Shown here piece after piece: positions 11,737 through 64,000 of a DNA stretch of 64,000 nucleotides. The DNA is taken from contig NC_037593.1 in NCBI RefSeq assembly GCF_003073045.1, positions 13,524,735-13,588,734 of the forward strand. The letters are read 5' to 3'. The stretch's first letter is position 1. Each line of letters begins with the position of its first letter. The stretch is from Pomacea canaliculata. Taxonomy: Eukaryota > Mollusca > Gastropoda > Architaenioglossa > Ampullariidae. The notes under the pieces were generated by a model that was not told where the DNA came from, did no database searches, and was given only the letters and a program-made list of their open reading frames with translations. The translations under genes were made by a program, and so were the position numbers.

Positions 11737-12448
11737 TTTATCGTCACTGCAAATTAAAAAAAAATAATATTCGTTTTTGTATTAAATTGGAAGGCTGATT
11801 TTCTTGTAGGTGCATTCAAAGGAACAGACATTTGTTCGGCATGTAAACAGAGTTCTCACAACAAATCTCGGTTACTAGCGTAAACAAGGAAGACTTCACT
11901 AGAAACCCACAGAACTACATTCAGGGGACTCATTACAATGTAGTTATCTACTGTGTTCTTTAGGTCAACAAGTTCTTTAGATAAATAGAGACGGGAGAAG
12001 CTAGTTCTCTCTGAGGTTGTGCCATCTCGTTTACTTGCTGAGAATGAAGTTCAAATCACGAGGTGACATGTACGCTCCAGTGCGCGATCAACAGCGCGTA
12101 TCAATATCTGAGCATCGAGATTTTGTTGTCGAGCTTCACTTAGGTCGTGGTCCGGCAAATGTGGGGACACTAATCAAGCCACTGAGAACTGCACAGGCAG
12201 ACACCTTTTCAAATTATCTCAGGTTTTGTCGTGAATACCGTGGTCGGCTTATATTTGCTTCTTCAAGACCAAGTAGGAGATAGCGGATCCACGTACACAA
12301 AACGTGAGAGTCTGCGATCGATTCCACGTAGTCGCAACGATTTAATCAGGGCAAGTGAAATCTGTAGGGAATATTTCACTCTCAAAAAAAAAAAAAAAAA
12401 TCGCTCTGTGGCTTTCAGGGAGCATTGACAGGGACTTTGACAAAGATC

Positions 12449-12575
12449 CATGGTGGGAGGGGCAGACGACTTGTCTTGGCTTTTGTTTTTTTTTTTTTTT
12501 TTTTGGTTTGGTTTGGTACGCAGTGACGTTTAAGCGTGTGACGACCTTTCTCTACCTGAACACTTCGCCTACACT
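12449..12575 (+). pseudogene. Decayed solo first exon of the PAN/EGF family, inside unit A
   Basis: Two pieces match exon 1 of the family. At 12449-12485 there is a match to the start region (gtgggagcagacgacctgtc), and at 12520-12575 a match to the first part of the mature protein region, including GTGACGACC and CTGAACACTTCGCCTAC. The part between them, including most of the signal-peptide coding region, is gone and is replaced by a run of about 20 T. No donor, EGF exon or large exon follows. It is a host gene relic, not functional. Confidence 0.7.
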
Positions 12576-13664
12576 AATTATTTAAGTTGGTCTGTTCGTC
12601 TCTCTGTCTATAGGTCAGTCCGTCTGTCTATCGTTCTGAATCGTCAAGTTGCCCGGTTTTTTTAAAAATATATTTATGTCCGTTTTCCCAAAGTGATGAC
12701 TCAATGGGTATGAAATAGAGGGACAATACTTCAAATATTAACAAAACAATGTAAACAAAGGGAAGAAATGGGAGGACGTTGTAGACATCTTGTTTTGTGT
12801 CAAGGTTACTCGAAATTGGAACCAAATGAGGGAACTGATTGCAACCCCAGGAACACCTGATAATATATTCATACCATCGTTTCACGCCTTTTTTATCGCA
12901 AGAATGAACAAATGTTCTTGATTTCTAGATATAGGAGAGAGCACGTTAGGATGGGGTGGGAGGGAGAGAAGGTATGGGTGATAAGACTACAGTAGTCTAC
13001 TCGCTGGTATAAGTTTGGTCTCCGTACTGTGAGGACGTAACGGCGACGTGACACTTGCAAGGCTGGCACATCAGAGACTAGCGAGTCCAGGCTTCTGATA
13101 TTTTGATTTGTGTTCATCCACTTTCAGTTCACATGTAAACTTTAGAGCCACGACATACTGGAAAGTGAAGCAATGGCAATTAGTTATTTTCGTCCTATTA
13201 AAATCTTCGTGAAAACAAAGACAAAAAACTAAAGGTGATGACCATTACCTTTCGGCGTTGATCGACTTGAGGTAAGAAATTCAATCTATTCTCTGTGGGG
13301 TCAATCTGTGGACAAAAGCAGTGGACGAAATTTATGCTAAAAATGTTAGTGATTACAATTAACTGATAAATATGAGTGGAAAAGTTAATTACTTATAAAT
13401 GTGGATGTTTCTTTTGTGGGAATCTAACGTTGTGGTATACTCCAAGACTAAACAATATGGTCAAGAAATGGCTAAAACATAAATGTCAAGTTTTCAATTA
13501 ATTAAAGTTGTTTGGAAATGAAAAGCCAGTAAGTAAAAGTCACTAAAGGTGTCTGAGATTTGAGATTTCAGTGACTACAAAGTCTTGATTGTTTTTCTTT
13601 TTTTTGTAATGCCAGAGAGAATTAACAGTGGCTCCAACAAAGACCGTGAGTGTTTCTAACCACG

Positions 13665-16517
<2,853 letters not shown>

Positions 16518-17012
16518 TTGATACCCCTTCATTTTTTTTATCTCTTTCATTCATGCCTTCTTCCTTTTTGTTCTCTATTCTTTCGTTTTCCGTTTTCCTA
16601 GACAAAGGGTTACCAACTTTTACATTATGGCTTCGGAAGGTGATGGTTTTTTTTAAAAAAGAAAATCATCATGTCAGTATGTCAAGGATAATGTAAGTCA
16701 GTGTATTAAGTTACAATCTTGGATCCTGTGGACAAAAAGAGACTCTAATGACCGTTTGTACTGTAGTTTGTCACGCTGTTGTACCCACTTCCTTAAAGTT
16801 TTTCTATATTATCTAGCACTAACGTTTCTTAGTTTAACACTAAGATTTTCCATTTGTCATCACTATATATATATTATGCTGAATGTGACTTGTACTTCAT
16901 TTTGAACATTCTTTCCCTAATGAAAAATTCGTACACTAACGCGAACAATGATGTTATTTGGTGAAGATTGATGTTTTCTTTATATATCCTTCGACAAGAA
17001 TGCAAAGCTAAA

Positions 17013-17018
17013 AATAAA
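17013..17018 (+). promoter_or_regulatory. Poly(A) signal, copy A
   Basis: AATAAA about 500 bp after the stop codon, with a second at 17039-17044. The first is conserved in copy B at 24477-24482. Confidence 0.45.
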
Positions 17019-18870
17019 TATAAAGAAATATTTAGAGGAATAAAATGAAAGTTTCTTTAACGGAATTTTGTGAATGTTTGAGTGGTTACATTGTACAAGA
17101 AGTGCTCAATTACTCATAGATAATAGATGTATGGTGTCATCTGGACAGCTGTCTACATACCCAGACATAAAAGTTGCCTGAAATGTGTATATATATATAT
17201 AATATTGTCTCATTATGATGTAACTGTAACCTGACCAACATTTTAATTATAACCTCAATTCTCCTTAAGACAGGGACATTACATTGTTGTGTCCTCGTTT
17301 GCGATATTACTTATTTAATGTTATCTGTGTTTGGTAGACCAGATGTGGGATGAGGCTGTATTGCGTCCAGATCATGATAATTTATTACAACTTTGGACAA
17401 ATTAATTCTTCGATAAATACTTCTAATGTTAAAATAGTCAGATTTAATCCTGAATACTTGGAAAGCAAATGTTTTAGTAAATAACACTTTTTGCTTGAGA
17501 GTTCTGTTACTATTTGTGCACATTGTGAAGATAAATCTTATTTTAATATAGATAGATATATGATTTTTTTAGATGTCGTGAAAAAGGATAACATCATGCT
17601 TTTACCTTTTATTTATATGAGAGTCAGCATTAAAAACTTATGCACGCCATTTTATTTACTGTATAAAATTACAGTGACAATAAATAAATATAAAAAAATT
17701 ATCTTTTTGTTCTGTCAATATTTTCTGGTTTAAGAAACTTACTGAGCGTAAAGTGAAGTTTGTGATCTGAGTGTACAACACAGTTTTTTGTTTTTCATTT
17801 CCATATAAAGTACGAGTTTTTTGTGACGTTATATTTGTTTACATTTAACCGATATTTACAAAATGCTTACGGATGCATTTATATAACTTCAACATATACA
17901 TTAACAGAATAATCAAGTACAGGTAAATACGACAAGGCTATGTTTTTCGGAGACACCACTTTGAGGTGTTTTATAAACTTAGATTTTTTTTTTCGTTAAA
18001 ACAAAATTGAGCATTCGTAATTAAACCAGCCAAAATTACACAAACAGTTTTGGTTTTGTTTTCACACGAGAAAGAAAATCGCCTCCTAACAAAGTGATCT
18101 ACTACTACTGCACACACACACACACACACTGTAGCTGTATATTCATTGATATTAATACTTGACAAGTTAATATTCAAATATCACTGGAGGTTGTACAAAT
18201 AATCCACGTCATCTAAAGACAGGTGCAATATAAACTGTCAATAGCAAACATTTTAATTTAAAAAATCGCAGATCGAGTAAATATTTTTACTTGACGGAGA
18301 CATCTATTGCTTTGACTTTTCAAATTTTGCTGACCTTATAAACATACTTTCCAGAAGAAAGTTTACAACTGCTGACAACTGTAGCTACGGGTCATTCCTC
18401 GCTTCTCTATATGAATTTATAATTATATAATTACTAATGAATATAGAATTACTAATCAACGTTAGCGCAGCTGACAAAGGGACTCACAAACATAACATTA
18501 AACTTTGTCTCCAGACTTGGCGTGCCTTTAAACCAGATAATCTTTTTGTGGCCTAAGGTCAGGAAGGTTCATCTGTAATTGGGAACGAATGTGCTGTAGA
18601 ACGTTCATCATAAAATATTTGTACCTACTCAGTCTCAAAAACAAGCTCGGGAGAAATTTTCACAAATATGGAATACGTCGCAATGCAATGTGTGCGCTAA
18701 TGTGTGCGTGTGTTTCATTGCGTTTCTTGTGCAAAGGGAAATAACTGGGTTATCAGGGGACACCATCATTGTTTGTTCTTGCCAACTTATGACAATTAAA
18801 GAAAAATCTCATGAAGTCTGGTCTTTATTAAAGCCGAAATCTGACACACTCACACACCTCTTAATGCAAA

Positions 18871-18916
18871 AATAAATAAATAAATAAAAGAAATAAAATA
18901 AATAAATAAAAAATAA
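18871..18916. repeat. (AAAT)n microsatellite at the A/B unit junction
   Basis: AAATA-type repeats lie between the end of the unit A homology (about 18860) and the start of unit B (about 18995). The block 18861-18994 is absent from the B/C junction near 26271. Confidence 0.8.
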
Positions 18917-21633
18917 AGTTGTAATGTAACGTGGATGCGTAGAGCTTCTAACTCAAACATTTTAAAGTAAATTGTCCACTTCCATTCATTCCTTCCCTCG
19001 TTTAAAATTTTGTTTTCACTGCAAAATAATTTTTTCAGAAAAAGATGTTTTCTGTATTAAATTGAAAGAGGTTTTTTTCATGTGCATTCATACAAACATT
19101 TGTTCGGCATTTAAACACACAAAGAAGCTTTGACGACAAAACCAAAGGACTGACAACTACATCCAGGAGGCTCATTGAAATGTAGTTATCTATTATGTTC
19201 TTTCGGTCAACAAGTTCTTTAGATAAATAGAAATGGGAGAAGCTAGTTTTCTCTTAAGTTGTGCCATCTCGTTTACTTGCTGAGAATGAAGTTGAAATCA
19301 CGAGGTGACCTGCACGCTCCAGCGCGCGATCAACAGCGCGTATCAGCTTCTGAGCATCGAGAACCATCGAGATTTTGTTGTCGAGCTTTCACCTAGGTCG
19401 TGGTCCAGCAAATATGGGGACACTAATCAAGCCACTGAGAACTGCACAGGCAGACACCTTCGCAAATTATCTCAGGTTTTGTCGTGGATACCGTGGTCGG
19501 CTTATATTTGCTTCTTCAAGACCAAGTAGGAGATAGCTGATCCACGTACACAAAACGTGAGAGTCGGCGATCGATTCCACGTGGTTGCAACGATTTAATC
19601 AGGGCAGGTGAAATCTGTCATTTTTTGGTTGTTGTCATCTTACTCTCACTTCACAGCATCTTCTGTCATTTGTTAAATTCCTTGAGTTTGTCCACAGGCT
19701 ATACAAATGCCGATAAGGTCCTGTTTGATTGACAGACAACCTCGGAAACTCTTTTACGAATTTAATGGTACAAAAATGACAAAATAAATTATGTGTAGTT
19801 CATAATAAAGGCATTCATTTAGTGTGGGTGTTAGTGTTGTGTGGTGCATCGTATGTAGTCCACATCAATTAAGCCACAATGAAGTGCCCAGACACGTGTG
19901 CTAGGTGTGTTTGAGGTCACCGAGGTCGTGTGATGCTTGCCTGATCGCGATGCAGTGATAACGGATACACGCGCACATCACGTGACAGCTGGCGTGTTTG
20001 GCGCTCGATTCCACGTGGCTACAACGATGGGCCGTGGGGCAAGTCTGCAGGACTAAAGTCTTTTACAAAACAGTGTGACGTCTTGAAGTTTGAAGAAGCA
20101 CAATCAATATTTTCCTAAAGCACCTTTATCCATCCTCATCTCACTTTCATAACACAAACGTGTTTGTCATCTTCCCACCCCACCTTTCAAGAAACACACA
20201 CACACAACCTGAATTAACTCTCACGGCAAGAACTCGATTCCAGAAATTCGATGACAGTCTCTGCTTCTACATTTTTTTCATAATGGAATAATTATATAGT
20301 ATATTGTATAAAGTGTAATATATAATTGTGAATCGTATTACTATTTGATTATCTAACTTGGTTTGTAGTTTCGAAGTTTCTCGCCGATCGTAATGTTGAC
20401 AGGTGAAATATAGACAGAAGTATCTGTTTGGCTTTCTGGCTGACTGTTCGTCTCTCTGTCTGTATGTCAGTCCGTCTGTCTGTCCTTCTGAAGCGGGAAA
20501 ATCGTTGCCCGTTTTTCATATTTAAGTCAGTCTTCTCAAAGTGATGAATCAATGGGTTTGAAATAGAGGGACAATACTTTAAATATTAACAAAACAAAGT
20601 AAACAAGATAAAGATACGGGAGACGTCGACATCTTGCCTTGTGCCAAAGTGATATGAAAGTTGGAACTGAATGATGGAACTGATTGCAACCCCAGGAACA
20701 CCTGATAATGTATTCATGCCATCTTTTCACAACTTTTTATCGCAAGAATCTTCGAATGTTCTTTATTTTTAGACAAAGGAGAGAGCACGTTGGGGTGGGG
20801 TGGGAGGGAGAGAAGGTATGGGTGATAAGACTGCAGTAGTCTACTCGCTGGTATAAGTTTGGTCTCCGTGTTGTGAGGACGTAACGGCGCCGTAACATTT
20901 GCCAGGCTCACACATCGGGGACACGCGAGTCCAGAAGGCTTCTGATATTTTGATTCGTGTTCATCCACTTTCAGTTCACATGTAATCCTTAGAACCACTA
21001 CAGACTGAAAAGTGAAGCTTTGGCAATTATCTGCAACCTATAAAAAACTTCGTAAAAACAAAGACAAAGAAAACAAGGAAAGCTGGTAACCATTACCTTT
21101 CGGCGTTGATCGACTTAAGGTAAGAAATTCAATCTATTTTTTATGTAGTAAATTATAACTTTTTAATTCTGTATCTTTCTTAATTAGTCTTGGAATTCAT
21201 CTGTGCGTTGATCTTTCCTAAACTGCCTGCTTCAAGTTCATAGTCTAAATTAGGGCAAAATCAAAGCTATAAATGTCAATTATAACAATTACCTGACACA
21301 TATCCATTGAAAACTTTCTGATGTTGTGGTAAACAGTAAAACACAGCAACATTGACAAGAAACTGCTAGAAAATAGCTATAACAATAACTGTCACATTTT
21401 CACTAAATAAAAAAAAAATTACTTTAAAAAGCCAGAAAATAAAAGTCACTAAGGTGTTAGAGATGAGTTGGACAATAGGAATCTGACGTAACTTCCTAAT
21501 TCACGATCATCTCCTCCATCAAACTCATCCTTAAATTATCATTGAACATCTCATTGATTACAAATTTTTGCTTTTTTAGGTCAGCGAGCATAAACAGTGA
21601 CTCCAACAAAGACCGTAGGTGTTTCTAACCACG

Positions 21634-23975
21634 ATGGGTGGGAGCAGACGACCTGTCTTGCTCTTTTTGTCGCCAGTCAGCCTGCTGACCATTTATGTCG
21701 CTTGTGTCATGAGACACATTTCCTGCGCCGTTGGTGACGTTCTGGAAGTGAACAGTGACGTTCGAGCGTGTGACGACACGTCTCTACCTGAACACTTCGC
21801 CTACGCTAGGGTAGTTGACGTTCATCCCGTCAGGAGCAAGATTTCCTGTCTGGCGTCATGCTTTCGTCACAACCTGTGCAGCCACGCAGCCTACACTGCG
21901 ACCTCTGACGTCAGCCGTGCGTCATGCGTTCTGTTCGGAGGCCAGACGATGAGGACGCGACGTACAACGGACGAGCTGCGAGACGAATCTTGTCGTTTCC
22001 TGATCATGGTAAGAGTCCTCGATGGAGAAACGTCTTTGCACGAAAAGTCATGTTGAGCGAGTTAGAGAATAGTTTTATGTTGCTGAACGTGCCACCATTA
22101 CATTTCCGTTTATATTGTAATAAAGCCTTTTGAGAGTTGTATTATTGAGAAGTTTATAACCATAAACAACATGCAGCAGGGTAAAAACAGTTATAGAAAG
22201 CAAAGTACAACCGCAATTGTATTTTGTGTATGTGTGGGTGTGTGCGCGCACGTGTGTGAGTGAGTGTGCGTGAATGTGCGTGCTTTATATAATTCAAAGC
22301 TTTAAATCACTAGTGACATGTATGTTAAAATTCAAAAAGTTTCAGCTAGTTGTAGTTCTGTCCACAGAAGCCTTGCGCTAATGGCGGATACCACGACCGA
22401 GGCTTTTGTCACTGTGAAGACGGATTCACTGGACAACGCTGTGAACTTAAGAATCCAGGTACGATTTTATGTTTGTAATTGTGTGTGTGTGTGAGTGAAG
22501 TTTGAAATGTGTGATGTTGCTGACATGATCTCGTGACCACTGATACATTCAGTTGACCCAACACGAAAATTTCATGATAATGTTTGTTTTCAGATGAATG
22601 CAAAAGTCGCTGGGCAGTGATTTTCTCTACCAATACCAAGGGTTCACTGGTGTCCGGAAATAAAACATTATTTAAAGACAACATAGCCCCTTCCAGCATA
22701 GGATCCATCGCTAAGGTGAAGATTCAGGAAGCCGACCAAGACATTATTCTCCAAGGAACAGTTTTTATAGGAAATAAAGGCACAAACTTCTCCATTCAAA
22801 CTAGCTCTACTATGATGAAACAGGACTGGAACCACTTTGCAAACGTCCCAACGCGACTGTTTCGCTACATCAGTCAAGATGGGTGGGTTCAGATGTTGCA
22901 AGAAGACACTGATAACATTCGTGTACAAATGAGAGCCATTACATGGTATGCGCGAATGCCTCACTATCTTCTCAACATAAGCAACACTCCTACTGGCAAT
23001 CTTTTTCAAGCTGTGACGGATGGCAAGGAACTGTTGACATTTTCGGCGCTAAAGTTCAACCAGACTTCACTTGATGTCGTAGGCCATTGGTTTGAAGTTT
23101 ACATTGATTCCTTTGATACCCTTAAATATGTCACGCCGACAAACTGGTATCATCGTACGGTCAACGCTTCTAAACATGCTGAAATAGTTTATGTCACAGT
23201 TTCCAGTGAAACATTGTCTCAATGGAGTTCATGGGAAAGTACAGAAAATTTTTATATTGATTCTTGTTGGACAAAAGCAACGAAAGAAAGGACTGGACAC
23301 GAAAACAGCGTTGGCTATCTTATCGGAGCAGTCCTCAGTGGTCATCGCACTCGCGTCATTGTCAACGACATGGCTCTCAACGTGGACCAGGTTCTCGTCG
23401 TCGATAACACGGTTTTCTTTGACGCGGGGTATTTCTTAGAGCCAGGGGACAACAGTCAGCCTCTAAGGAACCCCAGGTCTGCCCGCCTGGTGGTGGCCAG
23501 CGATGGGCGAGTCGTGTCATGTAGTCGGAGTTTACTGGCATCCTGGGACATGATGAAATCCTCCTACAATGCCAGCTTCCTCACCTGGTTCGTCCACACA
23601 CGTCAGTGGTCACGTGTTTTCACCATCACGACACAAGGGGAAATTCTTCACGGGTCAGAGAGTGCTCTCGTTGATGCTGTCAGCAAAGGTGCTTCTCTCC
23701 AGATTGGCCTCACCCTGGACAGCTCTTCCTCTTACAGGTATCTCCTTCTGACTATCCGTTCTATTCAGACAACCTCCGAGGGTCACGTGGTGGCGGAGCT
23801 GGAGGGACTTTCACGTCTGCTAGAAGACCCAGGTGTGGACTGTTCTTCCATTGCAATGCTGATGACATCACTGGGTGAGGTGCGAATATATAATTATTGG
23901 CGCCGACATGCTGGAAACCACACTGTGGGTGAGAACATGACGATGGACTGGTTCGTGGAGAGCTATCAGCCCTGA
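21634..23975 (+). CDS. Secreted PAN/apple-like + EGF-like + four-module protein, copy B
   Basis: Second tandem paralogue, 615 aa. Coding exons are 21634-22008, 22368-22458 and 22594-23975 (TGA), with the same phases as A. The probable leader exon ends at 21119. The signal peptide and six-Cys domain are almost identical to A (SDVRACDDTSLPEHFAY here). The EGF exon reads KPCANGGYHDRGFCHCED. Exon 3 differs from A in two places: the start of module 1 (STNTKGSLVSGNKTLFKDNI) and residues just after VVGHW in module 2 (FEVYIDSFDTLKYV...), about 23.09-23.26 kb. From ENSVGYLIGAVLSGH to the end it is nearly identical to A. The intron before the EGF exon is shorter than in A and C because a block of about 0.3 kb upstream of the acceptor is missing. 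Confidence 0.85.
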
Positions 23976-24476
23976 TTAATACTACCTTCATTTTTTTTTA
24001 TCTCTTTCATTCATGCCTTCTTCCTTTTTGTTCTCTATTCTCTCGTTTTTCGTTTTAATAGACAAAGGGTTACCAACTTTTACATTATGGCTTAGACACG
24101 TGATGGGTTTTTTTAAAAGAAAATCATTATGTCAGTATGTCAAGGATAATGTAAGTCAGTGTATTAAGTTACAAGCTTGGATCCTGTGGACAAATAGGAG
24201 ACTCTAATGGCCGTTTGTACTGTAGTTTTTCACGCTGTTGTGCTCACTTCCTTAAATTATTTCTATATTATCTAGCACAAACCTTTCTTAGTATAACACT
24301 AAGATTTTCCATTTCTCATCACTATATATATATTATGGTGAATGTGACTTGTACTTCATTTTGAACATTCTTTCCCTAATGAAAAACTCGTACACTAACG
24401 CGAACAATGATGTTATTTGATGAAGGTTGATGTTACGTTTGCTTTGCACATCCTTCGACAAGAATGCAAAGCTAAA

Positions 24477-24482
24477 AATAAA
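24477..24482 (+). promoter_or_regulatory. Poly(A) signal, copy B
   Basis: AATAAA about 500 bp after the stop codon, at the same place as the copy A signal at 17013. Confidence 0.45.
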
Positions 24483-26270
24483 TATAAAGAAATATTTAGA
24501 GGACTAAAATGAAAGTTTCTTTAACTGAATTTTGTGAATGTTTGACTGGTTACGTTTTACAAGAAGTGTTCAATTACTCATAGATAACAGATTTATGGTG
24601 TCATCTGGACAACTGTCCACATACCCGGACATAAACATTGCCTGAAATGTGTATATATATATATAATATTGTCTCATTATGATGTAACTGTAACCTGACC
24701 AACATTTTAATTATAACCTCAATTCTGCTTAAGACAGGGACAGGACATTGTTGTGTCGTCGTTTGTTATGTTATTTATTTAATGTTATCTGTGTTGGGTA
24801 GACCACATGTTCAATTAGGCTGTATTGGGGCAAACACATTATTATTTATTACAACTTTGGATAAATTAATACTTCGATAAATACTTCTAATGTTGAAATA
24901 GTCAAATTGAATCCTTAATATTTGGAAAGCAAATGTTTAAGTAAATAACACTTTTTGCTTGAGAGTTCTGTTACTATTTATTTACATGGTAAAAATAAAT
25001 CTTATTTTAATATAGATAAATATATGATCTTTCTAGATGTAGTGAAAAAGGATAACATCATGCTTTTACCTTTTATTTATATGAGAGTCAGCATTAAAAA
25101 CTTTGCACGCCATTTTATTTGCTGTATAAAATTACGACAATAAAAAAATAAAAAAAATTATGTGTTTGTTCTGTCAATCTTTGCTGGTTTAAGAAACTTG
25201 CTGAGCATAAAGTGAATTTTGTGATCTGAGTGTACAACACAGTTTTTTGTTTTTCATTTCCATATAAAGTACGAGTTTTTTGTGACGTTATATTTGTTTA
25301 CATTTAACCGATATTTACAAAATACTTACGGATACATTTATATAACTTCAACATATACATTAACAGAATAATCAAGTACAGGTAAATACGACAAGGCTAT
25401 GTTTTTCGGAGAGACCAGTTTGAGGTGTTTTATAAACGTAGAATTTTTTTTCGTTAAAAAAATGGAATATTTGTAATTAAACCAGCCAAAAACACGCAAA
25501 CAGTTTTGGTTTTGTTTCCACACGAAAAAGAAAATCGCCTCCTAGTAGAGTGCTCTACTACTACACACACTTACTGTAGCTTATGTTCATAGACATTAAT
25601 GCTTGACAAGTTAATATTTAAATATCACTGGAGGTTGTGCAAATAATCCACGTCATCTAAAGACAGGTGTAATATAAACTGTCAATAACAAACATTTTAA
25701 TTCAAAAAATCGCAGATCGAGACATTAAATATTTTCACTTGGTGGAGACATCTATTGCTTTGACTTTTCAAATTTTGCTGACTTTTAAGTTAATAAACAT
25801 ACTTTCAAAAAGAAAGCTTACAACTATTTACAACTGTAGCTACGGTAATTCATCGCTTCCCTATATGAATGTGCAATTACTAATCAACGTTAGCGCAGCT
25901 GACAAAGGGATTCACCAACATAACATTAAACTTTGTCTCCAGACTTGGCGTGCCTTTAAACCAGATAATCTTTTTGTGGCCTAAGGTCAAGAAGGTTTAT
26001 CTATAATTGTCAACGCATGTGCTGTAAAACGTTCATCATAAAATATTTGTACTTAGTCTGCCTCAAAAGCAAGCTAGGGAGAAATTTTCACAAATATAGA
26101 ATACGTCGCAAAACAAGGTTCATGTGTGTGTCATGACGTTTCGCATGCAAAGGGAAATAACTGGGCTATCAGGGGACACCATCATTGTTTGTTCTTGCCA
26201 ACATATAACAATTGAAGAAAAATCTCATGAAGTCTGGTCTTTATTAAAGCCGAAATCTGACACATACACC

Positions 26271-29200
26271 GTTTAAAATTTTGTTTTCACTGCAAAATAA
26301 TTTTGTCAGAAAAATATATTTTTTCTGTATTAAATTGAAAGAGTTTTTTTTCATGTGCATTCATACAAACAAATAAGCCTTGACGACAAAGCCAAAGGAC
26401 TGACAACTACATCCAGGAGGCTAATTGAAATGTGGTTATCTATTATGTTCTTCAGGTCAACAAGTTCTTTCGATAAATAGAAATGGGAGAAGCTAGTTTT
26501 CTCTTAAGTTGTGCCATCTCGTTTACTTGCTGAGAATGAAGTGGAAATCACTAGGTGACATGCACGCTCCAGTGCGCGATCAACATCGCGTATCAGCTTC
26601 TGAGCTTCGAGAACCATCGAGATTTTGTTGTCTAGCTTTCACCTAGGTCGTGGTCCAGCAAATGTGGGGACACTAATCAAGCCACTGAGAACTGCACAGG
26701 CAGACACCTTCGCAAATTATTTCAGGTTTTGTCGTGGACACCGTGGTCGGCTTATATTTGCTTCTTAAAGACCAAGTAGGAGATAGCGGATCCACGTACA
26801 CAAAACGTGAGAGTCAGAGATCGATTCCACGTGGTCGCAACGATTTAATCAGGGCATTTTTTGTTGTTGTCACCTTACTCTCACTTCACACCATCTTCTG
26901 TCATTTGTTAAATTACTTGAGTTTGTCCACAGGCTATACAGATGCTGGTAAGGTCCTGTGTGATTGACAGACAACTTCGGAAACTCTTTTACGAATTTAA
27001 TGGTACAAAAATGACAAAATAAATTATGTGTAGTTCATAATGAAGACATTCATTTAGTGTGTGTGTTAGTGTTGTGTGGTGCATCGTATGTAGTCCACAT
27101 CAATTAAGCCACAATGAAGTGCCCAGACAACTGTGCTAGGTATGTTTGAGGTCACCGAGGTCGTGTGGTGCTTGCCTGATCGCGATGCAGTGATAACGGA
27201 TACACGCGCACATCACGTGACAGCTGGCGTGTTTGGCGCTCGATTCCACGTGGCTACAACGATGGGCCGTGGGGCAAGTCTGCAGGAACGAAGTCTTTTA
27301 AAAAACAGTGTGACGTCTTGAAGTTTGAAGAAGCACAATCAATATTTTCCTAAAGCACCTTTATCCATCCTCATCACACTTTCATAACACAAGCGTGTTT
27401 GCCATCTTTCCACCCCAGCTCCCACGAAACACACACACAACATGAATTAACTTTCATGCCAAGAAAGTGTTTCCACAAATTCTATGCCAGTCTCTACTTC
27501 TTCATTTTTACAATGGAATAATTATATATTATATTGTATAAAGTGTTATATATTATTATTATGATTAAATGTAGGGAGAAATGTCTGTTTGGCTTTCTAG
27601 CTGACTGTTCGTCTCTGTCTGTATGTCAGTCCGTCTGTCTGTCGTTCCGAAAGGTGAAAAACCGTTGCCCGTTTTTCATATTTAAGTCCGTCTTCACCAA
27701 GTGATGAATCAATGAATATGAAATAGAGGGACAATACTTCAAATATTAACAAAACAAAGTAAACAAAGTTAAGACACGGGAGACGTTGTCGACATCTTGC
27801 CTTGTGAAAAAGTGAGATGAAAGTTGGAACCGAATGATGGAACTGATTGCAACCCCAGGAACACCTGATAATGTATTCATGCCATCTTTTCACAACTTTT
27901 TATCGCAAGAATCTTCGAAATTTCTCGACTTTTAGACAAAGAATGAGCACGTTTGGGGCAGGGGTGGGAGGGAGAGAAGGTATGGGTGATAAGACTGCAG
28001 TAGTCTACTCGCTGATATAAGTTTGGTCTCCGTGCTGTGAGGACGTAACGGGGCCGTGACACTTGCAAGGCTGACACATCAGGGACGAGCGAGTCCAGAA
28101 GGCTTCTGACATTTTGATTCCTGTTCATCCACTTTCAGTTCACATGTAATCCTTAGAACCGCGACACACTGGAAATTGAAATATCTGCAACATATAAAAA
28201 AACAAAGACAAAAAAAAAAAAAACCTAAATAAATCTGATAACCATCACATATCGGAGTTGATCAACAAAAGGTAAGGAATTCAATCTACTTTCTATGTGG
28301 TAAATTATAACTTTTTAATTCTGTATCTTTCTTAATCAGTCTTGGAATTCATCTGTACTTTGATCTTTCCTAAACTGCCTGCTTTAAATTCATAGTCTAA
28401 ATTAGGACAGAATCAAAGCTATAAATGTTAATGATAACCTGACGCACATCTGCATCTGTTAAAAACTTCATTTCTTCACAGCTAGATGTTCGCTTTGTGT
28501 GCATCATACGTTGTGGTAAACAGTAAAACATAGCACGATGGACAAGAAACTGGTAGAACATAGATATAACTATAATTGTAACATTTTCACTTAATTAAAT
28601 AAAAGTCCCGAAGGTGTCTGATACTGATCGAGGTTCACTATGACTCACGATCATCTCCTCCATCAAACTCATCTTTAAATTATTATTTAACACCTCGGTG
28701 ATGACAAAGTCTTGCTTTTTTCAGGTCAGGGAGAATTAACAGTGACTCCAACAAAGACCGTGAGTGTTTCTAACCACGATGGGTGGGAGCAGACGACCTG
28801 TCTTACTCTTTTTGTCGCCAGTCAGCCTGCTGACCATTTATGTCGCTTACGTCATAAGACACATTTCCTGCGCCCTTGGTGACGTTCTGGAAGTGAACAG
28901 TGACGTCCGAAGGTGTGACGACCCGTCTCTACCTGAACACTTCGCCTACGCTAGAGTAGTTGACGTTCATCCCGTCAGGAGCAAGAGTTCGTGTCTGGCG
29001 TCATGCTTTCGTCACAGCCTGTGCAGCCACGCAGCCTACACTGCGACCTCTGACGTCAGCCGTGCGTCATGCGTTCTGTTCGGAGGGCAGACGATGAGAA
29101 CGCGACGTACAACGGAGGAGCTGCGAGACGAATCTTGTCGTTTCCTGATCATGGTAAGAGTCCTCGATGGAGAAACGTCTTTTCACGAAAAGTTCAATTA

Positions 29201-31200: not shown

Positions 31201-33960
31201 TCTCTTACTTTCGTTCTTTTATCTCTTTGTCTTTTACTCATCCTTCCCTCTTTTCACATTTTCACGTTTTTTTTTTTGTTTTTTTTCCTTTTTTATTCTT
31301 GTGTGGTCGTATGTTATGCTATGATATGTTAATTAAAGTTATTTGTAATTGAAAGACGGGATGTGCGATGAGGCAATATTCCTCTATCATACAGGACTTG
31401 TGCGAGGGATGTTCTACTTCCGCCGGGACTTTTATACTTCGCGAGCTTTCGGCGAGTGCAGACTATGCGGACTCGATAGAGTGAGTCCTCGGGGTGTTTG
31501 CACATTTTTCTTTTAATTCTTCCCCTCCTAGTTTTCCCAGGATGGAGAGGAGAAACAAGACGATGAAAGCTCCACCGAGTAATCCACTAGCTTTGTGACT
31601 TTCGAGTGATCATGCTGTATCACTGTGGGCTTGGCTTTTGGGTGTTGACAGTTTGCAAGATCTGAAAGAAATTTATGGCAGTGATGCTCCATATGAAACT
31701 GTTACAGACTGGTTTCGGCGATTTGTCAGGTGCGAGAGTGTTAACCAAGGCCAGACAATTCCGACAAAGGGTCTTGTACTTGTGTGATGAGTTAAGGGAG
31801 AGAATGCTGATTCAAATGATAGACAACATGTCCGGCTTTGCGCGATCGTCGTGTGCGTGACCAAGGCTTAAACAAAAGCCATTTCGGGTATCAGCGAGAA
31901 GTTTTGAAAGAAAATCGGTGAGGGCAGATGTGAAAAATGAAATTAAAATAAATATTTTTCAACAAAACACATTTGAGCATTATGCATATTAAAGTATCCA
32001 AATTTGTACTCTCAAATTTGACCAGATCTACGTCCCCCCAAATCGGTTTTTTTTTTTCTCGCGCCCACAGGCTGAAGGCGGAACGGAATGAGAAAGATAT
32101 CTTGAAATAGTCTACCATGACTTTGCAATGAACACTTTATATAAAAATGCGTCTCACTTCTACATCTTTTTTCTGGGCAATTCAGTGTAGTATGCATCAG
32201 TGACTCGGTAAACATCGTGGAGGGGTTTGGATGACTGGATTTGCTTCTATCATTAGGTGCGAACAAAGCGGACAATGTTCTGTTGTCCTGTTGTTCTCAC
32301 AGACCTTTACTAGGGAGCTTTTGTGGACATGATACGACTTGTAAATATTAAGGAGGCGAACCATGGGCAAGACAATGTCTTCTTTGTAAACTTACAAAGT
32401 CGATGAATTTTCTTTCCCAGAGTCCGAAACGTTTGAGGACAGCCTTGATGTTTTAGTGGTCAGAGAAACACATCATACAAAAAGTTGGCTAAGCGAACGA
32501 GGCTCTATTTTATCGGCAGATCGCTTTAAAAGCGCCTTTCTGGACTAAAATATTGCCAGAGGCACAAGTAAACAAGAAAACTATTTGTAATTCTTCGCGA
32601 ATGCACGAACTTTCAAGAGCTTTCAAGATTTTTCTCAATCCTGCCGTCGCACTCGCATTAAGGAGCTCTTTGCTCGCATCGTCATGGATGACATGGATTT
32701 TAACACAGTAGGAATACAACAGTAGGATGGATACGTTATGTTGTGAATACTTCGTCAAATAAAAATAAAATTCTTTACGAGCGTTCGGCATTGACGGATT
32801 GTAAAAGGAATAGAGGAATGTGCTTCAATTAATGTGCATATTTTTTGTTTCAACCTCGGGCTGCGCAATTAGAGCCATCAACTCAGTGCAATTTGCATGT
32901 CTTGCGCTTCTCGTCAACGAATATGTAGAGAACACTCAGTAAAGGGATTTCTTTTGTACACAGTTCTCAGAAAATTGACTGTCGTCAAGGGAGACGTGCC
33001 AGCGATGTAAATATATAGATCACCAGCAAGCAAACACGTAAATGTTTAATAGGTTTAAACGGGTAGAACGCTCGACTGTACGCTTTCGGAGTTAGCTGGA
33101 CAAAAATTCGCGTATCTTAAATGTATGTCGCGTATGTCTAAATTCTCATTTTCTAATAGTGAACATGTTAAGCAGGCAAAAGGGGAACATCATATAATGT
33201 ACAAAGACTCACTTCTATGTGCGGACAAGCGGCGAGAAAGCACGCAGATGTTCTCAAATTTCTGGTCCTGTCAACATTCCTTAAGTTTCTGTTCACTCCG
33301 AGACTACGCTTTTGTATCTTCTCTTCTCATAAAAGTGTCTCTAAATTTCGATGTCTACCAAGCACAACTGAAACTTTAATATGTGAAATAAAGGATAATA
33401 AAGCTTTCACAACCGGCATACTTTTATTATTTATACCTTCTTACTTTTAAAGTCATCGTACCGAAGCAAACAATTCGTGAAAAATTCAGAAACAAAGGAA
33501 ACACGTGGACAATTCAAAGTTTAAAAATATTTTGTTGATAAAAAAAGCTCATGCAACAACTTCTCCGAAAGTATTCATTTTTTTCTTTTTTTACTAACTT
33601 TGAAACTTCAAGACTGGTGATTTTTAAAAAAAAATACTTCAGCCAGTAACAGGGACTGATAACAGGATGCATCTTAACAGGTGAACAATTTCAAAATACA
33701 GAGGTAGGGAAAAGGGCATTAATTGTGATGAGGCTTCCGTGAGATGCCCTGTTCAGTCTAGCCAATAAGCCCATTAATTGTTGTGATTACGAGTCTTTTT
33801 TTCATTGTATCTATTCTCGTGTTTAGTGGCTACTTAGAGTCAGGCGTCTCTGAAGATGGCGACCTGGTAAATGCGGTTTGTGCCGCGATATCATGTCTGT
33901 CACAATTCTGACAATTTAATGTCACAACCACTGACATCGGACTGCACACCGCCTGTGACG
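31201..33960. other. Spacer after the tandem array
   Basis: No intact gene. It contains the possible mariner-like relic at about 31.65-31.86 kb (own entry), T-rich runs and otherwise unremarkable AT-rich sequence. I find no EGF or large-exon remnants of the family here. Confidence 0.45.
31651..31860 (+). mobile_element. Possible relic of a mariner-like transposase N-terminus
   Basis: One frame reads LQDLKEIYGSDAPYETVTDW then FRRFVRCESVNQG. This resembles the helix-turn-helix region of mariner transposases (LQ..YG.dA....tV..W..RF..G..sv.D). A second frame nearby reads ELRERMLIQMIDN, which could be the next helix. No DDE catalytic region or terminal repeat is visible, so this is a weak call. 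Confidence 0.3.
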
Positions 33961-33961
33961 C

Positions 33962-34169
33962 TGCTGGTGTTCAGTGCAGGGTGACGTCGGAGCTTGTGAC
34001 GACATAATTTTGTCTGAACACATGGCCTACGCTAGAGTTGTCGTCATTTGTCCAGCCAGGAACAAGAGTACATGTCTGGCGTCATGCCTTCGTCATAGAG
34101 TGTGTAGCTACCCGGCCTCTGACGTCAACAGACCAGCTGTGAGGTCAATTGTGTCGTTTTGTCATCATG
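33962..34169 (+). pseudogene. Decayed solo first exon of the PAN/EGF family between copies C and D
   Basis: The frame MQGDVGACDDIILSEHMAYA, then RNKSTCLASCLRHRVCSYPAS, matches the mature part of exon 1 (SDVRRCDDPSLPEHFAYA, SKSLCLASCFRHSLCSH). The region after the fourth Cys is shortened and the fifth Cys is gone. The signal-peptide part is lost. The exon end (catcatg, then gtaagg at 34170) is still preserved. No EGF or large exon follows before copy D, so this is a relic rather than a gene. Confidence 0.8.
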
Positions 34170-36085: not shown

Positions 36086-36094
36086 AGTGTAAAC

Positions 36095-38661
36095 ATGGAA
36101 ACGCGCCCTTTTCTGATGATGTTGACCCTCGTCCTGCACACCAAATGTGCTCTTGGTGACGTTTTGCCGGTGCACAGTGACGTTCGAAAGTGTGACGACC
36201 CGTCTCTACCTGAACACTTCGCCTACGCTAGAGTAGTTGACGTTCATCCCGTCAGGAGCAAGAGTTCGTGTCTGGCGTCATGCTTTCGTCACAGCCTGTG
36301 CAGCCACGCAGCCTACACTGCGACCTCTGACGTCAGCCGTGCGTCATGCGTTCTGTTCGGAGGGCAGATGATGAGAACGCGACGTACAACGGGCCAGCTG
36401 GGAGGTGACTCATGTCGCTTCCTGATCATGGTAAGAGTTCTCGAAGGAGGAACCTGTGTAGTATACGTTAAATTATATTCAGGGTTATCCATCATCAAAG
36501 ATCTCTTCTTTGTTTGTTTGTTTGTTTGTTTGTTTGTTTGTTTGTTTGTTTGTTTGTTTTTTGCGTCCCTCAAAGTCAAACACCAGGACGAGAGGGTCTT
36601 ACACAAAAGGGACATAGTATGAGTCTTCTGGTTATGAATACAGCGGTTCTTGCAAATATTGCTTTTTCTTACTACCAACGCGTGTGTGTGTGTGTGAGAG
36701 AGGGAGAGAGAAAAAGGAAAGAGAGATAGAGCATATGTATGCATGCATGTGTACATGTCCTTGCGTGCATCAGTGTCTATGTTGATAGAAGTGGGGGATA
36801 CCCCGAAACAGCAGGTAAGCCTGTCTAAAGGACAAGGAGCCGACCCTGTAAACAGATGCCGGATGCACACACAAAAACAAAAAAACTTGCCAGAGATGGT
36901 ATCTGAACTCGGGACAGCCAATCAACACCTAGCGGTTGTATCACTGGATCTTGCAAAGAAAGAGAATAGAGATGGATGAATGGAGAGGAGAGTTATTCCA
37001 GTGTAAATATTATTTTGTTTTAAATTTTGTTTTGCAGAAATCTTGCAATAACGGTGGTTCCTTCGATCGTGGTTTTTGCTCCTGTCCAGAAACAGCCACT
37101 GGTCAGCGCTGTGAGATTGAAAATTCAGGTGCGTTTCATGTATGGTTGCGTGTTTGTGTGAGTATCAGTAGGTATTGATGCGAGTATTTTTTGCACAGTA
37201 ATTCACAAAATTAACTTGAAGACCATTTTAACAGCAATTTGAACTGTCTCTACAGCGGATTGCTTGAATCGATGGAAAGAGATGTACGCTACCAACACCG
37301 CGGGTGTCCTCGTATCAGGAGAAAAGTCGATTTTGAGAAACATCAGCTCCACACTGGTAGGATCCTACGCCAAGGTGAGCATTGAACAGGGCGGCACATA
37401 CCTACTACTCCAAGGCAAAGGCATTTACACGTTTGGAAGTTCCACGTTCTCTCTACAGCTCAGCTCGACCTTTACCAAACAGGCTTGGAACCAGTTCGAA
37501 GAACTCCCTTCTAGACAGTTTCGCTACGTCAGCGAGAACGGACGCGTACAAACGTTAAACGAAGGCAATGGCAGTGTTACCGTCCAACAGACGGCCACTA
37601 CGTGGTACGCACGTGTTCCTCACGTGCGTCGTGTTATCTATACCTTTGACTCCTCGGGGAAACCTGTTGGAACGCCAATAGCCGATCTTTTTAAGGCAGT
37701 GAAGGATGGAAAGGAAATAATAGGTTATTCAGGTCTTAGGTTCAACGTCACATCGCAACAAGCTGTTGCGAATCAATTCGAGCATGATGTTGGATCGTAT
37801 CCAGATCAGACATTTTTCACTCCTTGCTATTGGTACAATAACAAAATCAGCACTTCTGGCAGTATGGAAGTATTCAGAGTTTATATTGTAGATGAAAAAC
37901 TTTATTTTAGAAGTGCAATTGTTTATGGAGAATCTTTTCAAGTTGACTCGTGCTGGACAAAGGCCACGCAAGATCGGACTGGCAAAGAAAACAGCGTTGG
38001 ATATCTCATCGGAGCGATTCTTAGTGGCCACCGCACCCGCATCGTCGTCGATGACTTGGCTTTAAACGTTGAGCAAGTGTTCGTCGTCGATGACACTGTT
38101 TTCTTTGACGCCGGATCCTTCATGCAGCCTGCGGACAGCAGTACGTTAGACAGCAGCGCCACTTCCGCCCGCCTGGTGGTGGCCAGCGATGGGCGAGTCG
38201 TGTCATGTAGTCGGCGTTTACTGCCTACCTGGGACATGAGAAAATCCTCCTACAATGCCAGCTTCCTCAGCTGGTTCGTCCACACACGTCAATGGTCACG
38301 TGTTTTCACCGTCACGACACAAGGGGAAATTCTTAACGGGTCAGAAAATGCTCTCTTTGATGCTGTCAGCAGAGGTGCCTCTCTCCAGATTGGCCTCACC
38401 CTAGAGAACTCCTCCTCTTACAGATATCTCCTTCTTACCATCCATTCTCTTCAGTTAACGTATAACGGTCACGTGGTAGCAGAAGCGCTGGGACTCTCAC
38501 GTCTGCTGGAGGTGCCGGATGTGGATTGCGTCTCTTTAGCGGTGCTGGTGACGTCACAGGGAGAGGTGCGTATGTACAGTTACTTTCGCCGAGTGGCTGG
38601 TAACCACACTGAGGGTCTGAACATGACGATTGACTGGTTCGTCGACAGTTATCAGCCTTGA
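36095..38661 (+). CDS. Secreted PAN/apple-like + EGF-like + four-module protein, copy D (diverged paralogue)
   Basis: 610 aa. Coding exons are 36095-36430, 37038-37128 and 37256-38661 (TGA), with phases 0 and 1 as in A-C. A leader exon probably ends at 35972. The signal peptide is unrelated to A-C (METRPFLMMLTLVLHTKCAL), yet from GDVL onward the six-Cys domain is almost base-identical to copy C. The EGF exon is diverged: KSCNNGGSFDRGFCSCPETA then TGQRC. Modules 1 and 2 in the large exon are strongly diverged (module 2 starts YTFDSSGKPVG). From about 38168 to 38440 the DNA again matches A-C nearly exactly (RLVVASDGRVVSCSRRLL). Module 4 then diverges in part. This alternation points to gene conversion from the array. 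Intron 1 contains a (TTTG)n run and a possible SINE fragment. Confidence 0.85.
36508..36558. repeat. (TTTG)n microsatellite, intron 1 of copy D
   Basis: About twelve TTTG units, 80 bp after the first-exon donor. A mixed GT/GA run follows at about 36681-36735. Confidence 0.9.
36790..36965 (-). repeat. Possible tRNA-derived SINE fragment, minus strand
   Basis: On the minus strand the segment reads a box-A-like stretch near 36950 and a box-B-like stretch (GAGTTCAGATACC) near 36905, followed by a GC-rich body with TACCCCGAAACAGC-type motifs on the plus strand. A related GC-rich body with a similar end (gtcccgagaagagatctgaa) lies at 40490-40570. The Pol III boxes are degenerate, so this remains tentative. 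Confidence 0.3.
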
Positions 38662-46022: not shown

Positions 46023-46159
46023 CAGTGGCGTAGGAAGATGCTTGGCTTTGGGAGGAAGGAGGAGGGAGCAAACTCCATGCTCACATTCTTGCCTCCTCGG
46101 TATCTTTTTTTGAGAAGGCGCTGCCCCCTCCCCCTTTGCCTCAGGTTCCTACGTCACTA
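46023..46159. mobile_element. Small hAT-like foldback element (MITE)
   Basis: About 137 bp bounded by inverted ends: CAGTGGCGTAGGAAG on the left and the complement of TAGTGACGTAGGAAC on the right. The inner sequences (ctttgggaggaaggaggagg and ccccctccccctttgcctc) are also partly complementary, so the whole element folds back. Ends of the form CAGTGGCGTA are typical of hAT MITEs. I see no clear 8-bp target duplication. Confidence 0.55.
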
Positions 46160-47533
46160 TTGTTTCTGTAGTTAGAGATGTACAAGAGTAATTACATGGA
46201 AGTAGCTAACAATTTATTTTTCAATGGCAGCTGTGAAGAGTTCTAACTATGTCTTCAGGGGAGATGGATCTAGTATGAAGAAAAAATGTGATACACTCCT
46301 CTAAAAGGCCTTTCTATGGGTGAAACTGTGCAAGATTTAAGTATGAAATTATATGGTATTTTGAGTGATTTGAAATACACTGGTGTCAACTTTCTGTACT
46401 GTTTTTCTGTTTGATGCGTGTGTGTGCTTCCAATCACGTCTACTGCAAGAGAAAATAGAAAATTACCTGCATGCTTGTTTTTACTATACATATTTGTTAT
46501 GACATTTTTATGATGTTAATGTAATGCATTAGAAAACGTAAATTTGCACCTCCTTCATTAGTGTTTTAGAATTGGTAGCACTTAAATTTTACTCCAAGCT
46601 TTCGTATTTTGTGCTATTACTATTTGACCGCTGGGAGTGGGGAGGGGGGGGCCAAGGATCCACTCTAACAAGTGCGTATGCTGTACCGGCATCCAAAGGC
46701 CCCACAATTCTATTTGCCCGAGGCCCGCATAACCCTAGCGCCGTCTCTGGAACACTATTTCTAAACCAAAGCAGAAAGTTTGAAACTTGGTAACAGGGTT
46801 CCATGCTACAGCAACGCAGGAGTGCTGTAACGCAAACGCTTCCATGGCGGATATATATAAATAATAGTGTAAGGGACATAACTCATCCAGAACGATTCTT
46901 TGCTATTCTGACAAAGGTTACCTCCCATCTTTTCTTTCCGGCAACATCGCAAAACTTTTATCAAGTAATTTCGCGAAATTTTAATCTGTGCGTAACTGAA
47001 TAAAACGATTTCTATTTTTCTTTGCCAAAGTATGATAAGAAATAGTTTAGGGTCCAATCTCTGAGCAGTGATCACTTGTTTCCACAATCTTTAAGCATAT
47101 CAGCGAAGGTTGGGAAACGGCAATGATGGCGAGTCTACTAAGGCCCCCCCCCCCCCCCCGCACGCACACACGTAGCAGCCGTGATCGAGAGGTTGTCTAC
47201 AGTCAAAATTTTCCTTTCAGTTCGCAAAGAACCTATCAACTCGCCTTTGAAGCTGCCGACGAGAAAAAAAAAAATGTGAAACGAAAGTAAAAGAACAGTG
47301 TTGATAATCAGTGTTTATTTAATTAAGGACACACAAAAAAAGAGGTGGTGGGGAGGGGGGGGGACAGAATCGATATTTCATTTTATAGAGCTCTCTTCGG
47401 CTGATGAATTGAAAATCTGCAACACAAACCTTTAGCTCAACCTCCAATCTATAAAGAAAAAAAAAAACCCCACCCCAAAACAAGCAAACACAAACACGTT
47501 CAGTGTCTGTGAGTTATTGTTTCAGTATTGACT
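46160..47533. other. Convergent spacer between ECHDC3 and copy E
   Basis: No gene. It holds a C run at about 47143-47159, a G-rich stretch at 47344-47364, and the poly(A) signal of copy E at 47314-47319 on the minus strand. Confidence 0.5.
47314..47319 (-). promoter_or_regulatory. Poly(A) signal, copy E
   Basis: AATAAA on the minus strand, about 215 bp after the copy E stop codon. Confidence 0.5.
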
Positions 47534-50124
47534 TTATGTCGGCTGATAATCGTCGACAAACCAGTCGATCGTCATGTTCCGACCCACAGTGTGGTTTCCT
47601 TCTTCTCGGTGTCTGTAACTGTACATCCGCACCTCTCCTAGTGAAGACACCAGTATCGATAGGGACAGGCAGTCCACTTCTATTGTGGTGAGCAGATCCC
47701 ACAGTCCTTCGGCCTCCGCAACCACGTGACCCGACTGCGCCACCACCAGCGCGTGGATGGTCAGAAGGAAGTAAGCGCCAGCGGGACGGGGGAGTTCAGT
47801 GGCGAGGCCGATCTGTACAGTAGCACCCCCGCTGACAGCGCGGAGGAGGGCACTCTCCGACCCGTGCAGAACTTCCCCTTCCGTGGTGACGGTGAAGATG
47901 CGCGACCAGCGTCGAGTGTGGACGAACCAGGTCAGGGAACCGGCACGGTGCGTGGTTCTATTTGTCCCCCAGTTAGGCAGCAAGCGTCGGCTGCACTCCA
48001 CCACATCCCCATCGCTGGCCACCACCAGCCGCACCGCTGCAGGGTTCTGCGTCAACGGCGACTCGCTGTCGGCCGGCTCCACGAACGAGGCTGTGTCAAA
48101 GAGAACGACATTGCCGACTACCCTGACTTGCTCCACGCTTAAGGCCATGTCATCGACCACGACACGGACGCGGTGGCCGTTGACGATGGCGGCGATCAGG
48201 TAGGCGACGCTGTTTTCGTTCTGGCCTGTCCCCGTACGGTCCGAAGTGGCCCTTGTCCAGCAGGCGTCGACGTACAGGCTGCGGGCCACCCTATAGGACG
48301 GCGTATAATCGTGCAGCGTTTCTGATGTCACAAGCACGCGCACCGTTTCCAGGCGCCCGCAGGTGCACAGCTTGCTGTGGAACCAATACGGTGGGTGCAC
48401 GAAGGTGCGTGTCACGTTGTCCACCCCTAGTTCCCACCCGAACTTGTTCAGCATGACGTTGCCTTTGGCACGGTCCACCTGCACTGCCGGAAAGCCGACT
48501 ACCTCTGCCCCCTCTTCAAGCGCCCTCAGAAGACCCTCCACTGTTCCGTTTAACGTTCTTCCGGACGAGTCGAACGCTAACGCGAGATGAGGGACGTGGG
48601 GCATGCGCGCTAGCCACTCCGTGGCCACTTCCGCCTGAGTTATTGTCCCGTCCCGCTCGTCAGCGGTGTAAAGCGAGCTGTCGTCTTTCAGCAGGCGCAT
48701 CTGCCGTACCGGCACGTCCCTGAACGCATTCCACATCTTCTTGGTCAATGTCGGGCTGAGTTGCATGGAGTAGAAAGGCGTGGCGAACGTGTGAAAGCCT
48801 GTGCCTCGAGCCACCAGGGTGGCGTTGTGCAGTTGCACCTTGACTTTCACGAACCCGCCGGCAGAGAGGCTGTTGATGCCGGACACCATACTCTTGCCGC
48901 CAGCTGTGGTGTCACCGTTCATGTCAGTGGCGTACACTTTGGTCCATCTGCCAAGGCAGTCGTCTGTAAAGGTAGATAGCATCTATAGTATCAATGGCAA
49001 TTTAATAACTAATGGGTCGATTGTGGAGTAGTGGGCTGGGAAGTTCAACAAAACAGTATAGCACAAATATAAACAGACCAACAGATAATACAATATCTTC
49101 TGATAATTTGGCCCGTTAATCTATCTGACCAGAATTTTGGCACTGCGGTTCTTGATCGCTCTTCTACATGTACAAAGTTATTTTCTTCGTCACAAAGACT
49201 GAAAAAAATGATCCTTTATTCCTGTATGCAACTGTAAAGCAACTGTATGATGCAGATACATTGAAAGCAAGAAAAACATACAGACGACGGAATGCAAAAA
49301 TACTGCATGCCCATCCGGCCGACCATCACTGAAGACAAACTGACAGTTTTTACCTGGTTTGTGCAGCTCGCACCTAGCCCCTGTGAATCCGTCAGGGCAG
49401 TGGCAAAAGCTTCGAATGAATGATCCACCATTGTGGCATGGATTCTGTGGATAACACAATTTGTCAGTGCATCTGACTATTGTGTTTCTTAACACCACCA
49501 TCGAATGAACCAGTGGCGCAAGAAACTGATGCATGTGGGCAAGCGTAGTGTTTGTGTATATGTGTGTGTGCTTTTGATGAATAGATGTTAACATTTGCAT
49601 ATGCAGTACATGTACTTGTTCTCTTCGAATTTCCTAACAAATTTAAAGTAAAGGTCGTCCCCTAACCTTTTCTTAGACCGTTTCTGGAAAGCACTTTTTA
49701 TCCCAAACCCTTTATAAAAACACGAAAGGGTCAGGGTTAGGGTTACAATTTTTATGTAATGTTTGTAACTTACCATAGTCAGAATATGACAAGTGTGACC
49801 CCGAAACTCCTGTCCTGTAGTCCGTGACCTGAGCTGGCCGCCGAGCATCACGCATGATGGAGGGCTGCGGCCAGACCCACCTACGTACACCGCATGGCTG
49901 CACAGACTGTAGCGAAAGCACGCTGCCAGACAGGAAAGCTTGCTTCTGGTCGACTGCACGTGCAGCACCCTTGAGCGTGCGTACTCCTTGTTCTTCTCAC
50001 GTGCGTCACACGCAATGACGTTCCCGTAACTCGTTTGAACATCGAGAACTGATGACGTCTGCGGGTCAGGGTCCGTTGCCTTGGAGAGCATGGCCAGCAA
50101 GGCCAGTAGAAACAACTTGATCAT
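47534..50124 (-). CDS. Secreted PAN/apple-like + EGF-like + four-module protein, copy E (GC-rich, inverted paralogue)
   Basis: 623 aa on the minus strand. Coding exons, in order, are 50124-49774, 49444-49354 and 48963-47534, again phases 0 and 1. I choose ATG 50124 because MIKLFLLALLAMLSKA is a clean signal peptide; an acceptor (ttcctgcag) lies about 20 bp upstream, and longer in-frame starts would bury the signal. The first domain keeps six Cys (IAC, LSC, AAC, LCS, PSC, HTC). The EGF exon reads NPCHNGG...CHCPDGFTGARC. The large exon shows the four-module layout most clearly: module 2 begins AFDSSGRTLNG...GLLRALEEGAEVVGF, module 4 begins WSRIFTVTTEGEVLHG...LLRAVSGGATVQIGL. The large exon is markedly GC-rich with many C/G third positions, unlike A-D. 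No conversion tract with A-D is obvious. Confidence 0.85.

Positions 50125-53056: not shown

Positions 53057-58260
<5,204 letters not shown>

Positions 58261-58522: not shown

Positions 58523-64000
<5,478 letters not shown>

Follow-up and report, generated by a model that had tools for sequence, protein, structure and literature searches.

The window, the whole stretch of 64,000 nucleotides analysed here (contig C4, 13,524,735-13,588,734), carries five intact genes that make up a tandem family of secreted, probably glycosylated proteins. The predicted product opens with a PAN-type domain at the N terminus, continues with a small EGF-like spacer in which two disulfides are expected, and ends in four alpha/beta modules. 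What is new in this family is a mosaic of silent divergence, low in the PAN exon and in modules 3-4 and high in modules 1-2. Within module 2, a patch of 50 codons has evolved far more quickly than the sequence around it, with an excess of replacement changes, a pattern that a recognition surface might show. Our preferred reading, a tentative one, is that these are secreted snail recognition proteins whose frame has been homogenised between copies while one face diversifies, and for which a humoral, immune-type use seems the most likely.

Four of the genes (A, B, C and D) lie on the forward strand and E on the reverse. The first three form tandem units of about 7.2 kb, D comes next, and E is found about 9 kb further on (Table 1). 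Every gene starts with an ATG and a signal-peptide-like stretch, and the reading frames are unbroken in all five, with 611 to 624 codons including the stop. The architecture described in the first-pass annotation was recovered in each, except for its non-coding leader exon, which stays putative: a PAN-type exon with six Cys (375, 375, 375, 336 and 351 bp in A to E), an EGF-like exon with four Cys that is always 91 bp long, and a final exon of about 1.4 kb (1370, 1382, 1376, 1406 and 1430 bp). Intron phases, 0 and then 1, are conserved in the five genes as that annotation had claimed, and all ten introns are GT-AG. The C-terminal DWFV..YQP that it had pointed out is likewise present in every product. 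Sites of the NxS/T type number 10, 8, 9, 8 and 6 in A to E, as raw counts with no chance expectation. The differences between A, B and C run through their whole length, which makes an assembly artefact unlikely. Intron 2 of gene A contains a TG dinucleotide run of about 100 bp (14928-15028 of the window).

Table 1. Exons, tandem units, variable patches and exon relic of the cluster, in window positions.
Feature	Position	Strand	Remark
Gene A exon 1	13665..14039	+	signal peptide + six-Cys PAN-type domain
Gene A exon 2	14826..14916	+	four-Cys EGF-like, 91 bp
Gene A exon 3	15148..16517	+	four modules, stop TGA
Gene B exon 1	21634..22008	+	signal peptide + PAN-type domain
Gene B exon 2	22368..22458	+	EGF-like, 91 bp
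Gene B exon 3	22594..23975	+	four modules
Gene C exon 1	28779..29153	+	signal peptide + PAN-type domain
Gene C exon 2	29622..29712	+	EGF-like, 91 bp
Gene C exon 3	29824..31199	+	four modules
Gene D exon 1	36095..36430	+	signal peptide + PAN-type domain
Gene D exon 2	37038..37128	+	EGF-like, 91 bp
Gene D exon 3	37256..38661	+	four modules
Gene E exon 1	49774..50124	-	signal peptide + PAN-type domain
Gene E exon 2	49354..49444	-	EGF-like, 91 bp
Gene E exon 3	47534..48963	-	four modules, stop TAA
Tandem unit A, ~7.2 kb	11677..18848	+	gene A plus flanks
Tandem unit B, ~7.3 kb	18946..26264	+	gene B plus flanks
Tandem unit C	26270..31277	+	3' flank non-homologous to 3' flanks of A and B
Variable patch, module 2, gene A	15663..15812	+	coordinates by counting
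Variable patch, module 2, gene B	23121..23270	+	coordinates by counting
Variable patch, module 2, gene C	30345..30494	+	coordinates by counting
Gene D counterpart of variable patch	37807..37956	+	coordinates by counting
Gene E counterpart of variable patch	48257..48409	-	coordinates by counting
Degraded PAN-type exon, relic of lost sixth copy	~33,972-34,172	+	between genes C and D

PAN/apple domains have four to six Cys in a characteristic spacing, and the six Cys of the cluster's first exon lie downstream of the leader in all five genes. Among the four PAN exon products scanned (A, C, D and E), PAN_1 of Pfam reached 19.1 bits in A, 20.4 in C and 19.2-20.1 in D, for a cut-off of 21.4. Gene E gave a PAN_4 match of 14.5 bits (cut-off 27) and no other PAN match. 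As for the second exon, EGF domains have six Cys forming three disulfides, and all five EGF-like exons have four. By their position, the two absent Cys are presumably the partners of one disulfide. The Pfam EGF score of this exon in gene E is 17.8 bits, compared with a cut-off of 21.5.

When the PAN exon of gene D was searched against the whole genome (440,159,624 bases in 24 contigs), only six places matched, namely the five genes and one relic (6 matches among 7 candidates scored, E up to 1). The relic is a degraded PAN-type exon that matches the cluster's own PAN profile with an E of 3e-15 and is followed by a donor-like ATG/GTAAG; neither an EGF nor a module exon was found to accompany it. 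The first-pass annotation had listed neither this relic nor the relatives outside the cluster. The published genome of Pomacea canaliculata, in the part of the source available, amounts to 440,071,717 bases with 14 chromosome-size scaffolds (PMC6129957).

The last exon has no counterpart at cut-off in the curated collections. Pfam returned no family for any of the five products, NCBIfam none among the three cluster products scanned, and no PDB chain was better than E 0.59 by sequence, with none by profile. A known domain family for this exon was discarded on these grounds, nothing in Pfam, NCBIfam or PDB by sequence being above cut-off; the same result applies to the characterised, broadly conserved family that the first-pass annotation had named as the outcome contrary to its view. 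The best rows under the Pfam threshold, Strep_pep (E 0.0066) and NUMOD4 (E 0.13), have the wrong length and fold. The description “lectin-like” found no support in the sequence, with no lectin family among the Pfam matches of the scanned products. Bacterial, viral or plasmid relatives were absent from the viral, genome and plasmid contig sets, which are sets without animals, and a keyword search of the literature brought up no described family of this kind that we recognised, although a word search cannot prove absence. Structure prediction of the whole last-exon product had a pLDDT of 36.9, at which matches from the model are meaningless. Viral structures gave no match at E up to 0.001. The repeated module falls outside the curated families used here.

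Relatives of the last exon exist in the same genome. Four distant ones were found on contig C8, at about 0.06, 17.8, 21.839 and 21.847 Mb, so the module family has at least four further loci besides the cluster. These relatives rule out an orphan domain, and the earlier statement that the cluster is unassignable to a known family stands in one part (no curated family matches) and falls in the other (the module is not an orphan). One of the four has the four modules in a single open frame, and the other three have pieces of the four modules across several frames, one of these being frame-broken in module 2. In this last locus (L028, about 66.4-66.9 kb of C8) the break lies between two overlapping open frames and could mean that an intron is present, that the assembly is wrong there or that the gene is broken. 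By eye, one C8 gene has a signal-peptide-like stretch immediately upstream of module 1. PAN and EGF profiles on four 10-kb stretches around these loci gave noise-level matches only, at E 0.3 or worse.

The C8 relatives also supplied the profile with which the four-module repeat became detectable. Profiles of the five genes' own modules had given no signal of an internal repeat, with all probabilities under 2. A profile from nine C8 modules, built without any module of the five cluster genes, scored the last-exon products A to E at 39.1, 23.4, 20.0, 40.4 and 55.8 bits, while the best of 2000 shuffles reached 9.7 bits, which bears out the four modules claimed for the large exon. This is the fair test; a mixed module profile includes the modules of one C8 gene, whose own scores with it follow from its construction. 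The module periods start near residues 6, 125-155, 235-250 and 334-352. Products B and C have clear scores for modules 3 and 4 only, with modules 1 and 2 placed via the alignment to A, D and E.

The module fold was also compared with the VirK family. In Foldseek, the VirK structure 5xta ranked only 22nd with an E of 0.29. Searched against the complete genome, the VirK profile (Pfam PF06903) found nothing at E up to 10, VirK was absent from the Pfam scans of the cluster products, and a keyword listing of literature on VirK in molluscs contained nothing that looked relevant. We regard it as quite unlikely that the cluster represents an uncatalogued animal recognition system, in which one snail lineage acquired four VirK-like modules as a secreted array and placed them behind PAN and EGF-like exons. 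Gene conversion would then have divided the array into a frame that stays constant and a cassette that varies (modules 1-2), and diversifying selection would act on one face of a beta sheet. If this were true, snails would have another way of pairing variable with constant parts alongside the FREPs, with an unrelated fold. The link of the module to a bacterial fold is weak yet checkable.

Next, divergence along the genes is uneven. When D is compared with A, B or C, silent divergence is 0.09-0.13 for the PAN exon, rises to 0.64-0.66 for modules 1+2 and lies at 0.36-0.39 for modules 3+4; in each of these three pairings the contrast of PAN with modules 1+2 is strong (Fisher 1e-13 to 4e-15). Within the A/B/C group the corresponding values are 0.03-0.10, 0.17-0.35 and 0.06-0.08, the B-C contrast between PAN and modules 1+2 reaching only p = 0.086. 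Divergence of D and E is near saturation throughout (PAN 0.68, modules 1+2 0.76, modules 3+4 0.57). The simplest reading of these silent sites is that the PAN exon would have been exchanged recently between D and A/B/C, and modules 3-4 among copies, with modules 1-2 spared. No donor of the divergent modules 1-2 of gene A was identified.

The fastest part lies in module 2. Over about 150 bp at 15,635-15,784 of gene A, the DNA of A, B and C differs by 0.40, 0.41 and 0.28, compared with 0.04-0.14 in adjacent exon windows; some upstream non-coding windows also differ by 0.24-0.63, in places where the alignment is gapped or non-homologous. In the best 50-codon window the three pairs accumulate 125 replacement and 23 silent differences, with pN 0.352 and pS 0.243, and elsewhere pN is 0.060 and pS 0.132. 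A window as strong was reached in 6 of 1000 column shuffles, the window being picked as the maximum. Replacement changes make up a different share of all changes inside the patch than outside it (Fisher p 0.0002 for A-B, 0.011 for A-C and 0.008 for B-C). All these statistics come from three close copies in one assembled genome, the three pairs being non-independent. Since the bootstrap support for pN > pS in the patch is 0.98, 0.85 and 0.75, which is not secure pair by pair, selection on the patch is likely but short of proof. Silent divergence is raised in the patch as well, so some of the signal reflects age and not selection.

The residues of the patch follow a pattern. Each of the five genes has V, I or F at alignment columns 370, 372 and 374, while columns 371 and 373 have four kinds of residue each; a P, a W, two E, a D, a C and a further W are invariant. 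The V-x-V-x-V stretch, with alternate positions variable and the hydrophobic ones kept, would fit a strand with one of its faces exposed. Among the C8 paralogs it is the patch segment that is better conserved, with 26, 27 and 27 of 45 positions conserved versus 25/54, 24/54 and 23/56 in the preceding part of module 2 (three of the four C8 genes, the fourth being omitted for the frame breaks inside its module 2). The order is opposite among A, B and C, with 17-25 of 46 in the patch and 33-41 of 49 before it. In the comparisons A-E, B-E, C-E and D-E, the patch is no less conserved than the preceding part of module 2.

In terms of function, gene conversion would prevent the copies from drifting apart in the PAN exon and in modules 3-4, which would serve as a shared frame in docking or assembly, and modules 1-2 would escape it. 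One beta-sheet face in module 2 may then be diversified by selection to bind changing ligands. The use, as far as the pattern can suggest it, would be humoral recognition of microbes or parasites by secreted paralogs that differ in specificity. The patch lends indirect support to the first-pass guess of an immune or reproductive role, and between these two we lean, by analogy, towards immunity: FREP-type proteins of snail blood are known to combine conserved with variable regions, to undergo gene conversion and in some cases to include PAN or EGF parts.

Reproductive proteins, too, are expected to show tandem duplication, gene conversion and a rapidly changing patch, and we give a rather low probability to egg-fluid, albumen-gland, seminal or gamete-recognition proteins: the sequence gives no pointer to gonad or egg over blood, and keyword searches of papers (words, not sequences) found no such proteins described in apple snail egg fluid. 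It is unlikely that the genes encode structural or matrix proteins of mucus, shell or cuticle, with PAN and EGF as adhesive parts, the modules as filler and the patch unconstrained. Secreted repeat proteins are frequent in matrices, and the excess of pN over pS is insecure in single pairs; however, W, E, V/I/F and C are kept in the patch of all five genes while their neighbours vary, a pattern not predicted by loss of constraint, and the segment is well conserved in the C8 paralogs. Finally, the genes could be plain tandem duplicates whose flanks were homogenised by gene conversion while an older, mildly relaxed middle (modules 1-2) was left out; this would explain why silent sites are likewise more diverged in modules 1+2 and in the A/B/C patch window (0.243 vs 0.132), but age alone is insufficient for a replacement share that differs in three of three pairs, and we hold an absence of special biology to be decidedly improbable.

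For invertebrates, which lack antibodies, families with a constant frame and one differing patch show a possible route to specificity. The cluster offers a concrete testable case of this, with a 50-codon patch, five named genes and conserved relatives as a baseline.

As for other features of the window, neither Rfam families nor tRNA were found in it. An open frame at 55585-56841 (-) has a hAT dimerisation match of 21.7 bits (cut-off 21.4) and represents a hAT transposon remnant, flanked by repeats at 54.8-57.5 kb; a burst of hAT elements is mentioned for the Pomacea canaliculata genome in the available part of PMC6129957. By eye, frames at 60342-62107 (+) look like fragments of the endonuclease and reverse transcriptase of a non-LTR retrotransposon, although Pfam gave them no match up to an E of 0.06. 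A 104-codon frame at 2407-2718 (-) is possibly a receptor exon, with a nuclear hormone receptor ligand-binding match of 16.6 bits vs 23.5, and a 158-codon frame at 9841-10314 (+), with a poly-Ser and an acidic stretch and no family above cut-off, is perhaps an exon of an unrelated gene.

Lastly, the cluster can be compared with four known or related systems. It resembles animal proteins with PAN/apple and EGF-like domains in the six Cys of its PAN exon and in its scores (up to 20.4 bits for PAN_1, 17.8 bits for EGF in gene E), and differs from them in that these are under the Pfam cut-offs of 21.4 and 21.5 and the EGF-like exon is two Cys short. With the four C8 loci it shares the same four-module array (20.0-55.8 bits with the C8-only profile on the cluster). 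Those loci differ in having no PAN or EGF exon in the 10-kb stretches, extra introns in three of the four, and a module 2 that is conserved where that of the cluster varies (three C8 genes compared). The VirK family is bacterial and has no sequence match to the cluster, and four modules in a row are undescribed for VirK in the material seen.

A parallel in biology is offered by the FREPs and FReMs (fibrinogen-related proteins) of the snail Biomphalaria glabrata. What defines a FREP is a fibrinogen domain at the C terminus together with IgSF domains, and neither was matched by Pfam in the five last-exon products (E up to 10) or in the four PAN exon products scanned (E up to 1), so membership of the cluster among FREPs fails. 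Furthermore, the variable face of the cluster sits in another kind of module, and its variation is seen between germ-line paralogs only. According to the available part of PMC7588048, gene conversion and point mutation generate variants in FREPs and FReMs, one FREP has a PAN/Apple domain and a FReM has an EGF-like domain. On the basis of that same part of the source, the likeness is that both are families of secreted, multi-domain snail proteins in which one part is conserved and another diversifies (PMC7588048).
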